From: Candidatus Nitronauta litoralis
Lineage (GTDB): Bacteria; Nitrospinota; Nitrospinia; Nitrospinales; Nitrospinaceae
NCBI GenBank assembly: GCA_015698285.1
Contig: CP048685.1
Location: 620,001 to 684,000, forward strand
Length of the DNA stretch: 64,000 nt
Direction of reading: 5' to 3'
The notes beneath the pieces are model-generated. The model was not told the DNA's origin. It worked only from the letters and a program-made list of their open reading frames with translations, and ran no database searches. Below are positions 51,107 to 55,417 of this stretch, one piece after another. Each line of letters begins with the position of its first letter. The first letter of the stretch is position 1. The position numbers were made by a program, and so were the translations under genes.

Positions 51107-51280
51107 CAAACTTTGCCGATTTGTAATGGGCACACTCCTTTAGAAAAAGGTCCTGGCCCCTACGGGAGGAGAAGAATACCCACAATCTGACTCAGATATT
51201 CCTACAATATTGAATTTATGACCTGAAAATGTCCCAGCGCTCAATTGACTCTATAAAAAGAGTCTGTTATTTTGCCCGGC

Positions 51281-51688
51281 ATGACCAAAGCCACTACCAT
51301 ATTTCTATTTCTTGTTGTCTGGTTCCTAGCCACAGTCAGTTTTGGAATGGCGAGCCCTCATGCCCACAAGGGAGAAAACCCCTTCCAAAATACAGGCTCT
51401 TCCAATATGGCTCATTGCCCCCACCATGAAAACCCCCTGCAGGGACTTTGCCCTCATCTCATTCTCGGGCATAGGGGAATACCAGCCAAGTGCATCATTA
51501 GTCAAGGCTGTAAACCCTTGCCAAATGGAATGCCGCATTCACTTTCTTTGAACTTTCCCACAGCCTGGGATGTATCCTATTTCGAAATGGGATTTCCAGC
51601 GCATGAAAAATATTTTCATCCAGACACGCCCCTCTTTCCTGAAATTATGATTCAGGACGCAACAGACCCTCCTCCCAAAGCTCTCTAA
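51281..51688 (+). CDS. Small secreted Cys/His-rich protein
   Basis: A 135-residue protein. The signal segment is TIFLFLVVWFLATVSFGMAS. The mature part has HAHKGENPF, then CPHHENPLQGLCPHLILGHR, CIISQGC and further His residues, which suggests metal binding. The ATG at 51281 lacks a good Shine-Dalgarno, and a possible promoter (TTGACT 51245, TATTTT 51268) would put the transcript start at about the ATG. It precedes the TonB receptor by 160 bp. No family is assigned. Confidence 0.65.
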   Translation: MTKATTIFLFLVVWFLATVSFGMASPHAHKGENPFQNTGSSNMAHCPHHENPLQGLCPHLILGHRGIPAKCIISQGCKPLPNGMPHSLSLNFPTAWDVSYFEMGFPAHEKYFHPDTPLFPEIMIQDATDPPPKAL

Positions 51689-51849
51689 TTCCTCCTCAAT
51701 TTTAGATTAACTTTTTCAAATCAGCCTGCCTGTTGGCATTGGCAGGCTCAATGTGAAGGACCGTAATGCTTTGCGGCCAGCTTACACCCTGAGCGTATTC
51801 AGGTCCTGATTTTGTCATGTTGGTGAACTTGCCTCTAAGGGAGATTAGA

Positions 51850-53937
51850 ATGAACAACCTATCAAGATTACCGGTTCTTGCAGTTTTCACAGTTGCATTA
51901 TTGGGAGCCTCTACCGACTTAATTTTAGCGGCAGAAAACAATACGACTATCCAATTAAAAGAAGTCCAGGTTATTGCAGATAAAGAAAAAATCAAAAGCA
52001 CATTAACTGTCCCCAGCAATCAGGATGCTTTAAAAGAAATCCAAAGCACCCCCGGGGGTGCCAACATAGTTGCTGAGGAGAAGTTTGAGAAAAAATACAC
52101 ACAGAGCTTTGCCGATACTCTCGCTCTCACTCCAGGAGTTTACGCCCAAAAACGATTCGGTGAAGAGGTGAGGTTTTCCATGCGGGGTTCCGGGTTATCC
52201 CGTGGATTCCATATGCTGGGGATCAAATTATTGCAGGATGGCATCCCTTTCAATCTAGCGGATGGAAGCGGTGACTTCCAGGAATCTGATTTTCTGGCAC
52301 AACAGCGAATCGAGGTTTACAAAGGAGGCAATTCGCTTCAGTACGGAGGGACCGCCCTGGGGGGAACAGTCAATATGATTACCAAAAATGGCATCAGCCA
52401 CCCAGGCCAGCAAGTCCGACTTGAAACCGGATCGGATGATACGTTCCGCTTCCACTTGCAAACCGGCCATGAGTTTGAGAGTTCGGATTTATTTCTCAGC
52501 CTGTCCGGCACAACAAGTGATGATTTTCGAGATCATTCCGAACAAGAAAATATCAAATTTAATGGAAACTTTGGTCTACGTCTTTCAGACCAGGTCGAAA
52601 GCCGGTTTTACTTCACGACCAACATTATTTCTCAAGAACTTCCTGGAGAAATTCCGATCAATACAGTCCTGACTCTTCCCGAAACAGCAAACCCCGATGC
52701 TATCCTCTCTGACTGGCAACGCGACATCAACTCGGTCAGACTTGCGAACAAAACCACCTTTGACCTGGGTAACGGACGCTTTGTGGATGTGGGGGCCTTC
52801 ATAAATCACAAAAACCTATTCCACCCGATCACCCGGTTTGTTGGAGTGATTGACCAGGAAAGTGTAGATTTCGGTTTCTTTGCTCAAGGGTATGGCTCTT
52901 ATAACATTGGACAATTCGAAAACAATTTCCGAGCAGGATTCACAACCCAGTTTGGACACACAAATGCTCTTTTGTTCTCAAATATTGGAGGACAACGGGG
53001 AGCCTTGAGATCCGATCAGGATCAATACGCCCAAACGGCTGTTATATATGGAGAGAATCATTTCTTTGTCATCCCCGAGCTGGCTTTAATCACCGGGGGT
53101 CAAATCGTTGTTGCCGGTCGAGAGGCAGATAACAATTTGATGCCTGCGAGGAGCGACTCGGAAACCTACGCGACATTCAATCCCCGTGTGGGCTTGCTGT
53201 ATCAACACTCTGACTCAATTCAATTTTTTGCAAATATCACCCGAAGCTACGAGCCACCTGATTTCATCAACCTGACCCAGGCCGGGACTATGGGCTTCAT
53301 TCCACTGGATGCACAGCGTGCATGGACCGGTGAAATAGGAACACGCGGGCAATACGGCCCCGTGTCCTGGGATCTCGTTTTCTACAGGGCCTGGCTCGAC
53401 GATGAACTATTGCAATTCGCAACCGGTCCCGGAATACCAGCTTCAACCTTTAACGCAGACGATACCATTCATCAGGGTATCGAGGTCGGTCTGAATTTTA
53501 TGTTAGGACAAAATCTCCTGATGGGCGGTGATAGCCTGCGTTGGAGTAACGCCTACACTTTCAGCGATTTCTACTTTGATGGCGATGTCCAATACGGGAA
53601 TAACACCATTGCAGGGCAACCCCCTCACTTTTTTCAAACTGAATTACGTTACGAGCATAAAAATGGCTGGTACATTGCGCCAAATGCAGAAGTGGCGAGT
53701 TCAGCCTTTGTGGACTTCAGCAACACCCTCAAAGCTCCTGATTACGCCATAATGGGTTTCACGGCAGGGTATCGCGTCAATGAAAATATCGACCTGTTTG
53801 TCAGTGGTCGCAATCTGCTGGATGAAGAATATGCTGCCACCTTTTCGACCATTGCCAGCCCAAATCCCTTCAACACTTCAACATTTTTTCCAGGGGATGA
53901 CCGAAGGCTGTTTGGCGGAGTAACGGTTAACTTTTAA
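51850..53937 (+). CDS. TonB-dependent outer-membrane receptor
   Basis: A 695-residue OM importer. The signal peptide ends near ILAAE. The plug domain has QSFADTLALTPGVYAQKRFG, FSMRGSGLSRGFHMLGIKLL and YGGTALGGTVNMITKNG. The C-terminal barrel ends in DRRLFGGVTVNF with a terminal Phe. The ATG at 51850 has GGGAGATTAGA upstream; an ATG at 51817 is in frame but lacks a signal-like start. Substrate unknown; the neighbours hint at a metal complex. A weak stem (GCCTGCC/GGCAGGC, 51724-51747) precedes it. Confidence 0.93.
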   Translation: MNNLSRLPVLAVFTVALLGASTDLILAAENNTTIQLKEVQVIADKEKIKSTLTVPSNQDALKEIQSTPGGANIVAEEKFEKKYTQSFADTLALTPGVYAQKRFGEEVRFSMRGSGLSRGFHMLGIKLLQDGIPFNLADGSGDFQESDFLAQQRIEVYKGGNSLQYGGTALGGTVNMITKNGISHPGQQVRLETGSDDTFRFHLQTGHEFESSDLFLSLSGTTSDDFRDHSEQENIKFNGNFGLRLSDQVESRFYFTTNIISQELPGEIPINTVLTLPETANPDAILSDWQRDINSVRLANKTTFDLGNGRFVDVGAFINHKNLFHPITRFVGVIDQESVDFGFFAQGYGSYNIGQFENNFRAGFTTQFGHTNALLFSNIGGQRGALRSDQDQYAQTAVIYGENHFFVIPELALITGGQIVVAGREADNNLMPARSDSETYATFNPRVGLLYQHSDSIQFFANITRSYEPPDFINLTQAGTMGFIPLDAQRAWTGEIGTRGQYGPVSWDLVFYRAWLDDELLQFATGPGIPASTFNADDTIHQGIEVGLNFMLGQNLLMGGDSLRWSNAYTFSDFYFDGDVQYGNNTIAGQPPHFFQTELRYEHKNGWYIAPNAEVASSAFVDFSNTLKAPDYAIMGFTAGYRVNENIDLFVSGRNLLDEEYAATFSTIASPNPFNTSTFFPGDDRRLFGGVTVNF

Positions 53938-54049: not shown

Positions 54050-55417
54050 ATGACAGGAAGATTCTCCATGTCCACCCTTCTCCAATTATTTTTCCTTGGA
54101 ATCACATTATTGGCTTCGACTGTTGCGACTGTGTGGGCTGGCAACACAACTCCCGATCCTGTTCTTTTAAAAGCGGCACGCATTTTCGACGGACAAGATT
54201 TCCTATCTGATAATTCCGTACTAATAGAAAACGGGAAAATTTCAAAAACAGGGATCAATGTAGCGGCACCTTCCTCCAACACAAAAATCCTTGATTTAGG
54301 TGATGCCACCATTTTGCCAGGCTTTATTGAACTCCATGCCCATCTCCTTTACCGCAAAGTTCAAGCGGATAAAGTATTAAAACACGGGATTACAACGGTC
54401 CGGGACCTGGGAGGTCCCCTGCATCAGCCCTACGGTGGAAAAGGAAGCTTACGAGTTCTAACTGCCGGACCAATCATTACAGCGCCACACGGTTATCCTA
54501 TCCCATTGATGGGCGCAAAAAATATCGCGGTCGCCGTTTCCAATGAAGAAGAGGCTCGGAAAACTGTTCGAGATCTAGTCGCAGGAGGAGCGGTGATCAT
54601 CAAAATCGCGTTGGAACCCGGTGGTGAAACCGGCGCACCCTGGTCAACTCACCACCACCACGGGCACCATGGCCATTCGACTGGCAAACATTCCAGACAA
54701 CATACTCTTGATCAGGGACATTCGACTGGCAAACATGCCAGACAACATACTCTTGATCAGGGCCATTCGACTGACAAACATGCCAGACAACATACTCTTG
54801 ATCATGGCCATGCATCGCATTCCACTGGAAACCATTCGCAAGGATGGCCGTTACTATCCGAGAGTATTGTCAAAACAATCGTTGATGAAGCCCACAAAAA
54901 TGGACGCAGGGTTACCGCGCACCTGGCCGAAGAACGGGGTGCACAAATCGCTATCAATTCCGGAGTCGATGAATGGGCTCACATGCCCTGCAATACAATA
55001 CCTGAAACATTGTTAAAACTGGCCGCATCACAGAGAGTGAAAATTGTTTCTACTCTCGACACCTTGTCCAAATGTTCCGGCATCGTTTCCAATACGAAGA
55101 AATGGAAAGAACTGGGAGGCGAGATTTTATACGGAGCGGAAATCGCTCATCCGGATATTCCGTGGGGGATTGATGCGCAGGAACTACTCTATTTACAGCA
55201 GTTGGCTAAAATGAATTCTCTGGATATATTTCGAATGGTGACTTCAAAAGCCGGTAAGCACCTCGAAATCCCAATGCTCGGAACCCTGCAAACAGGGGCA
55301 ATGGCAGATATAATTGCGGTAAAGGGAAACCCCATCCACAACTTGAAAATATTAGAATACCCTGATCTGGTTATCTCAGGTGGTGAAATTGTGATCAATC
55401 AATTTTCAGACCACTAA
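54050..55417 (+). CDS. Exported amidohydrolase with His-rich repeat insertion
   Basis: A 455-residue imidazolonepropionase/prolidase-like amidohydrolase. The signal segment STLLQLFFLGITLLASTVAT is followed by the barrel with metal motif ELHAHLLY (HxH), the carboxylysine candidate VIIKIALEPGG, the His in VTAHLAEE, the His in EWAHMP and the acidic ALEIAHPD-like segment. Between Lys and the next helix is an insert of about 75 residues, packed with His and made of three perfect-length 15-residue repeats (GHSTGKHARQHTLDQ). The ATG at 54050 has AGAGG upstream. It probably hydrolyses a cyclic amide or dipeptide; the insert may store or bind Zn, Ni or Cu. Confidence 0.88.
   Translation: MTGRFSMSTLLQLFFLGITLLASTVATVWAGNTTPDPVLLKAARIFDGQDFLSDNSVLIENGKISKTGINVAAPSSNTKILDLGDATILPGFIELHAHLLYRKVQADKVLKHGITTVRDLGGPLHQPYGGKGSLRVLTAGPIITAPHGYPIPLMGAKNIAVAVSNEEEARKTVRDLVAGGAVIIKIALEPGGETGAPWSTHHHHGHHGHSTGKHSRQHTLDQGHSTGKHARQHTLDQGHSTDKHARQHTLDHGHASHSTGNHSQGWPLLSESIVKTIVDEAHKNGRRVTAHLAEERGAQIAINSGVDEWAHMPCNTIPETLLKLAASQRVKIVSTLDTLSKCSGIVSNTKKWKELGGEILYGAEIAHPDIPWGIDAQELLYLQQLAKMNSLDIFRMVTSKAGKHLEIPMLGTLQTGAMADIIAVKGNPIHNLKILEYPDLVISGGEIVINQFSDH
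54671..54805 (+). repeat. 45 bp minisatellite within the amidohydrolase gene
   Basis: Three in-frame 45 bp units (54671-54715, 54716-54760, 54761-54805) differing by a few bases, encoding residues 208-252. A shorter His-rich end follows. The near identity at DNA level means recent expansion and a likely variable copy number between strains. Confidence 0.93.

Follow-up and report, generated by a model that had tools for sequence, protein, structure and literature searches.

The 45-bp tandem repeat in an exported amidohydrolase gene of Candidatus Nitronauta litoralis is, as far as comparison with its homologs indicates, a recent and lineage-specific expansion of a histidine-rich loop that is shared by the whole protein family. 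The repeat had originally been described as inserted in the enzyme, but it is no new insertion in this protein, as a His-containing loop is present at the same site in all 76 aligned homologs. The family itself hardly occurs outside ammonia-, methane-, and nitrite-oxidizing bacteria. In the window (the whole stretch of 64,000 nucleotides analyzed, contig CP048685.1, positions 620,001 to 684,000), the gene order is leader ORF, TonB-dependent receptor, amidohydrolase, an arrangement that we tentatively read as a metal-acquisition operon.

Sequence comparison and modeling

Homologs were collected in a search of 61 related genomes, which returned seven orthologs, and in a scan of 84,980 species, which returned 117 relatives; the best 80 of these were kept and 76 were aligned. 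Amidohydrolase residues were counted from the ATG at 54050, and the loop was delimited in the alignment as the segment between W198 and W266 (numbering of the window protein). An AlphaFold2 model built from the 76 sequences (mean pLDDT 86.3) superseded a poor one built from eight (pLDDT 60). Tandem repeats were described with TRF and solved structures were compared with Foldseek. AmoA/PmoA were searched in 49 host genomes, in 250 evenly drawn Burkholderiales genomes (center genome included), and in 369 genomes from the class of Methylomonas. The features of the window are collected in Table 1.

Table 1. Features of the leader, receptor, and amidohydrolase region (positions within the window)
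Feature	Position	Strand	Remarks
Leader ORF, 138 aa	51272..51688	+	TTG start; in-frame ATG 51281; hydrophobic N-terminus
Intergenic region, 161 nt	51689..51849	+	Length if the receptor starts at ATG 51850
Hairpin AGCCTGCC...GGCAGGCT	51723-51748	+	In the leader-receptor intergenic region
Terminator-like stem	51788-51803	+	In the leader-receptor intergenic region
TonB-dependent outer-membrane receptor	51817..53937	+	Probable start ATG 51850; siderophore-receptor-like
Exported amidohydrolase, 455 aa, repeat-bearing gene	54050..55417	+	ATG 54050 likelier start; alternative TTG start 54011 (468 aa)
H96-x-H98, first metal ligands	54335..54343	+	76/76 conserved
Lys185, position of the metal-bridging (carbamylated) lysine	54602..54604	+	76/76; aligned with Cc2672
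His-rich loop, residues 199-265, 67 aa, 19 His	54644..54844	+	Model and 76-sequence alignment
45-bp tandem repeat	54671..54811	+	TRF; in frame in the amidohydrolase gene; unit GHSTGKHARQHTLDQ
His291, metal ligand	54920..54922	+	76/76 conserved
H311-x-P-C314, metal ligand His311 and family-specific Cys314	54980..54991	+	76/76
Invariant Cys342	55073..55075	+	76/76
E364-x-x-H367, Glu for the usual strand-8 Asp, plus invariant His	55139..55150	+	76/76

The repeat array and the family-wide loop

The array was described as 3.1 copies of a 45-bp period (94% match, score 254), positions 54671-54805 comprising exactly three units, which are translated as GHSTGKHSRQHTLDQ, GHSTGKHARQHTLDQ, and GHSTDKHARQHTLDH; any two units differ at 2–3 of 45 bases. 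The original prediction of three near-identical 15-residue repeats with poly-His on both sides (STHHHHGHHGH before and GHASHSTGNH after the array) was borne out, as was their location inside an exported amidohydrolase: the array is in frame, the ORF matches PF01979 (Amidohydro_1, E = 6.8e−11) and, as read from the sequence, its hydrophobic N-terminus resembles an export signal. Because the units differ by so few bases, the expansion appears to be recent; among the homologs compared, the array is present only in the window genome, and the loop of the nearest genus-mate (L007) has 30 residues and no 45-bp repeat. Chance or an assembly artifact as the origin of the repeat was excluded, since the frame is intact and homologs share the loop, and a single mobile-element insertion was excluded by the family-wide presence of the loop.

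Across the 76 homologs, the loop is 10–67 residues long (median 31) and holds 1–19 histidines (median 7), the window protein having both the longest loop and the most histidines. Histidine makes up 25% of the residues inside the loop versus 3.6% outside, and mean pairwise identity is 32% inside versus 62% outside. The first loop histidine (H202) is invariant and H204 is found in 69 of 76 sequences (91%); the loop thus has a fixed HxH start, beyond which its His-rich sequence evolves freely. The length variation that had been expected from the near-identity of the repeats is seen across the family, and since the loop regions of several Nitrosospira and Nitrosovibrio members hold small in-frame repeats of their own (12, 15, or 18 bp, TRF), repeat-driven length change recurs. 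A tree of the loop-free core separates, with high support, a short-loop group (8 members, 1–4 His) from the long-loop rest (68). The G017 homolog (L008:832-2133), the locus of which is near a Fur-type regulator, combines a short loop in the standard position with another His-rich insert (GHGGHHHG) that follows PLSVF. ZnuA, ZIP transporters, UreE, and HypB have comparable flexible His-rich segments, which vary in length and adjoin a metal site; the loop described here differs in being located within an enzyme of the amidohydrolase fold.

Fold and active site of the amidohydrolase

The only run of the model with pLDDT below 50 is residues 205–262, i.e., the His-rich insert, which is modeled as disordered and predicted to leave the barrel between strand 4 (183–188, including Lys185) and helix 4 (271–283), a loop that lies on the active-site face of the amidohydrolase fold. 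The repeat had been placed just after the metal-bridging lysine, in agreement with its first residue (208) being 23 residues past Lys185, and the modeling proposed as a check likewise puts the insert at the active-site face. Homologs with an insert outside this loop would have spoken against the claim, and all 76 have it there.

Foldseek recovered the barrel with a small beta-sandwich (E about 1e−25 against 3mtw and relatives), with Cc2672, Xaa-Pro dipeptidase, Zn arginine carboxypeptidase, and ochratoxinases among the closest solved folds. At about 20% identity, the ligands H96, H98, K185, H291, and H311, invariant in 76/76 sequences, match in place the HxH, Lys, His, and His ligands of Cc2672 (Xaa-Lys/Arg carboxypeptidase, 3mtw) and of the ochratoxinase/ADH3-type enzymes. 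Unlike these, the family has the His-rich loop behind strand 4, the additional residues Cys314, Cys342, and His367, and Glu364 in 76/76 members where Cc2672 has an Asp (YGTD). The strand-8 Asp is the usual catalytic base of the amidohydrolase barrel, and catalysis is uncertain because it is replaced by Glu in all members: either Glu364 would act as the base or the active site would have been rebuilt. The invariance of the other metal ligands, Lys included, suggests that the binuclear site is kept. The best-scoring named model was NF051886 (Xaa-Pro dipeptidase, Caulobacter type), yet its 95.6 bits are far under the curated cut-off of 500 bits. No publication on this amidohydrolase in nitrifiers or methanotrophs was found in a literature search with many subscription journals outside its coverage.

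Hosts and distribution

The named hosts among the best 80 of the 117 relatives are ammonia, methane, or nitrite oxidizers (Nitrosospira, Nitrosomonas, Nitrosovibrio, Nitrotoga, Nitrospina/Nitrospinaceae, Methylobacter, Methylomonas, and Methylosinus), with MAGs besides. AmoA/PmoA were detected in 21 of the 49 host genomes tested, many of which are incomplete MAGs; among these 49, none were found in five Nitrospinota or in Nitrotoga, and AmoA was not seen in many gene-bearing MAGs. Among the 250 Burkholderiales, 5 had the gene, 8 had AmoA/PmoA, and 4 had both, i.e., AmoA/PmoA in 4/5 carriers versus 4/245 non-carriers (Fisher p = 2e−6, or 5e−5 once the center genome was left out). In the 369 genomes from the class of Methylomonas, only the center genome had the gene while AmoA/PmoA were present in 11, so that most AmoA/PmoA gammaproteobacteria of this sample are without it. 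Strict co-occurrence with AmoA/PmoA was rejected in favor of an association: the gene is enriched in copper-monooxygenase bacteria without being universal there, and nitrite oxidizers carry it too. The Nitrospinota amidohydrolases fall among the betaproteobacterial nitrifier sequences and not apart from them, at a point of the tree with low support; this placement suggests a possible transfer between guilds.

Gene neighborhood

In 34 of the 80 loci, the gene is immediately preceded on its own strand by that of a TonB-dependent receptor (36 have one within 3 kb), and 23 of the 80 have an AraC-type regulator. The nearest solved structures of the window receptor are YncD/PqqU. None of the receptors scanned matched an OprC/copper model, the receptors being siderophore-receptor- and PqqU-like instead, and an OprC-type copper receptor was rejected on this account. 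An exported BNR-repeat protein with a weak Pfam match recurs next to these TonB receptors in Nitrospinota and ammonia oxidizers (L121:2899-4191, L124:2539-3813, L139:2537-4039, and L025:413-1690), the Nitrospinota copies carrying a CPCC motif.

Another cluster, with no receptor, accompanies the amidohydrolase in 20 ammonia-oxidizer-type loci (Nitrosomonas/Nitrosospira), where it follows CoA-transferase, AMP-ligase (CoA-ligase), acyl-CoA dehydrogenase, MFS, and porin-like genes; the amidohydrolase is the last gene of such a cluster in L021, L022, L028, L029, L033, L057, and others. This cluster could serve the making or breakdown of a small molecule. At several loci of Nitrosomonas-type genomes (L039, L059, L065, L070, L072, and L075), the amidohydrolase gene is duplicated, in tandem or nearly so.

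A leader peptide family in Nitrospinota

By analogy with known leaders, the 138-aa ORF is proposed to be a metal-sensing, arrest-type leader peptide heading the operon. It contains the motif AHC..H...LCPH...GC and a C-terminal DPPPKAL, its homologs precede receptors at four other Nitrospinota loci, and a profile made from five members matched 43 of 61 Nitrospinota genomes (members at 51272-51688 of the window, at L046:7339-7761, and in L121, L124-L126, L128, L129, L133, L136-L141, L143-L146, and L149-L154). The 28 members read are 132–173 aa long and share HC..H...CPH...CGG followed by a Pro-Pro pair, at 51–54 residues from the CGG cysteine in 28/28 (sd 0.7) and exactly 3 residues before the stop in 22/28, compared with a background of 1.5% of 878 ORFs having PP within the last 8 residues. 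Since spacer identity is just 16% (17 aligned members) and length is variable, it is the distance and not the sequence that is conserved, as expected of a nascent-chain sensor.

Seventeen members had no match to DUF2946 (PF11162) at E up to 1 and, unlike CutF/CopL-type leaders, only one member hit the CopL model, below cut-off (E = 9e−4). Membership of either family was rejected, and no above-cut-off match to any Pfam or NCBIfam family was obtained. In architecture, the leader nevertheless resembles CruR and CutF. The copper-repressed cruR-crtA(bfrG)-bp2921 operon of B. pertussis begins with a leader that has a CXXC motif, a spacing of 45 residues, and RAPP 3 residues before its end, followed by a gap of 162 nt to the copper receptor gene (PMC9426467, PMC12914433). 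The exported leader with a Cys motif, the prolines 3 residues from the C-terminus, the fixed Cys-to-Pro distance, and the gap of about 160 nt before a TonB receptor are alike in CruR/DUF2946-CrtA (BfrG), and at L046 the order leader, receptor, PepSY_TM repeats that of cruR-crtA(bfrG)-bp2921 (PMC9426467, PMC12914433). Points of difference from CruR are the motif (HC...CPH...CGG versus CXXC, which the family lacks), the spacing (52 versus 45), the PPP/RPP/HPP ending in place of RAPP, the lack of a DUF2946 match, and the amidohydrolase that the window has where Bordetella has PepSY_TM. With CutF/CopL-type leaders it shares export, a metal-type motif, a proline-rich C-terminus, and a location upstream of periplasmic or outer-membrane proteins (PMC9973294). 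The gap between leader and receptor may be an attenuation region; strong folded structure was not found in it (folding z-score −1.55).

Other members of the leader family head operons with TonB/ExbBD and the BNR-repeat protein, with cytochrome P460, or with TlpA and an outer-membrane protein. The cytochrome P460 operons (L138:4738-6497 and L141:101-3002) combine the same leader family with a short exported ORF, and such a leader-headed operon is also present in the window's own genome.

Proposed function and alternative explanations

A metal role of the loop, as put forward in the original prediction, is plausible, and the parts concerned (His-rich metal loop, amidohydrolase, metal-uptake operon) are of known kinds. 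Because the family occurs almost only in these guilds and is often found beside a metal-import gene, it probably helps its hosts to obtain metal. We consider it possible, at somewhat below an even chance, that leader, receptor, and amidohydrolase form a metal-acquisition operon: a chelate is imported, the hydrolase attacks it, and the ion set free is held by the loop. When the metal, probably copper, is scarce, the leader peptide would allow expression of the operon, and the TonB receptor would bring in a metal chelate. The periplasmic amidohydrolase (Cc2672/ochratoxinase fold) would then hydrolyze the chelator, or a related ligand, at an amide or peptide bond. The flexible His-rich loop, lying at the active-site mouth with H202-x-H204 as its anchor, would catch the freed ion and retain it, either to pass it on or to supply the enzyme's own site. 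This loop would turn over by in-frame duplication, because what matters in this proposal is His density and not a set sequence. We infer co-transcription and metal regulation of the operon; the catalysis of the amidohydrolase, its substrate, metal binding by the loop, and copper as the metal are presumed in the same sense. The metal would most likely be copper, favored because of the leader architecture and the host guilds. Against this reading stand the strand-8 Glu, the 20 receptor-free Nitrosomonas/Nitrosospira loci with their CoA-ligase, acyl-CoA dehydrogenase, and porin-type neighbors, the absence of a copper monooxygenase from Nitrospina and Nitrotoga, the AmoA/PmoA gammaproteobacteria that mostly lack the gene and the many MAGs that carry it but show no AmoA, the missing DUF2946 match of the leader, as well as receptors that are siderophore-receptor/PqqU-like and match no copper model. 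The fullest version, in which ammonia, methane, and nitrite oxidizers share a periplasmic amidohydrolase dedicated to copper acquisition that has a rewired site (Glu364/His367/Cys314/Cys342), degrades an imported copper chelate, hands the ion to an evolving His-rich loop, and is controlled in Nitrospinota by metal-sensing arrest-type leaders of a hitherto unnamed family, is doubtful.

The loop could instead, as the original prediction had it, store metal for the enzyme or load it into the binuclear site, and have no wider role in uptake. Its predicted position at the active-site face after Lys185, the nearly invariant H202-x-H204, and the metal-holding accessory segments of UreE, HypB, and the ZnuA loop would all fit, but the TonB receptor linkage, the leader ORF, and the restriction to nitrifiers and methanotrophs would be left unexplained, and other solved amidohydrolases of this fold are, as far as known, active without such a loop. 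We regard this explanation as unlikely, and prefer metal acquisition because of the TonB receptor, the copper-type leader, and the host guilds.

Slightly less probable still is the same architecture serving zinc, nickel, or iron in place of copper. Zn and Ni are bound by His-rich loops just as Cu is, the receptors are of a siderophore-receptor-like type, and the L008 locus has its Fur-type neighbor. CutF-like leaders are not all copper-specific, those with other motifs being tied to nickel/cobalt (PMC9973294). The occurrence of the gene, however, partly tracks the copper-monooxygenase guilds, and the leader architecture and PepSY_TM order match a copper-repressed operon (PMC9426467).

That the loop is a disordered solubility or gating linker, its His bias and repeats products of slippage with no metal function, is improbable: variable length and sequence, low model confidence, and independent in-frame repeats are what such a linker would show, but histidine is held at about 25% over 76 sequences despite sequence turnover, the first His is invariant in a family spanning two phyla, and this family of exported metalloenzymes stands beside metal-type receptors. 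A catalytically dead amidohydrolase fold that now serves in the periplasm to escort or sense metal, with Glu364, His367, Cys314, and Cys342 as a new metal site, would account for the strand-8 Asp-to-Glu change and the invariant His367 and two Cys, but is very improbable with every other metal ligand invariant, Lys included.

Implications

The wider context makes the loop more interesting than a local minisatellite would be. Ammonia and methane oxidation are limited by copper supply, and copper acquisition by nitrifiers and by methanotrophs without methanobactin is poorly known. A hydrolase family that is linked to TonB receptors and rarely seen outside these guilds offers a defined target for gene deletion in culturable strains. 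With the Nitrospinota leader family, the control of metal genes by arrest peptides would reach a phylum that is important for marine nitrite oxidation.
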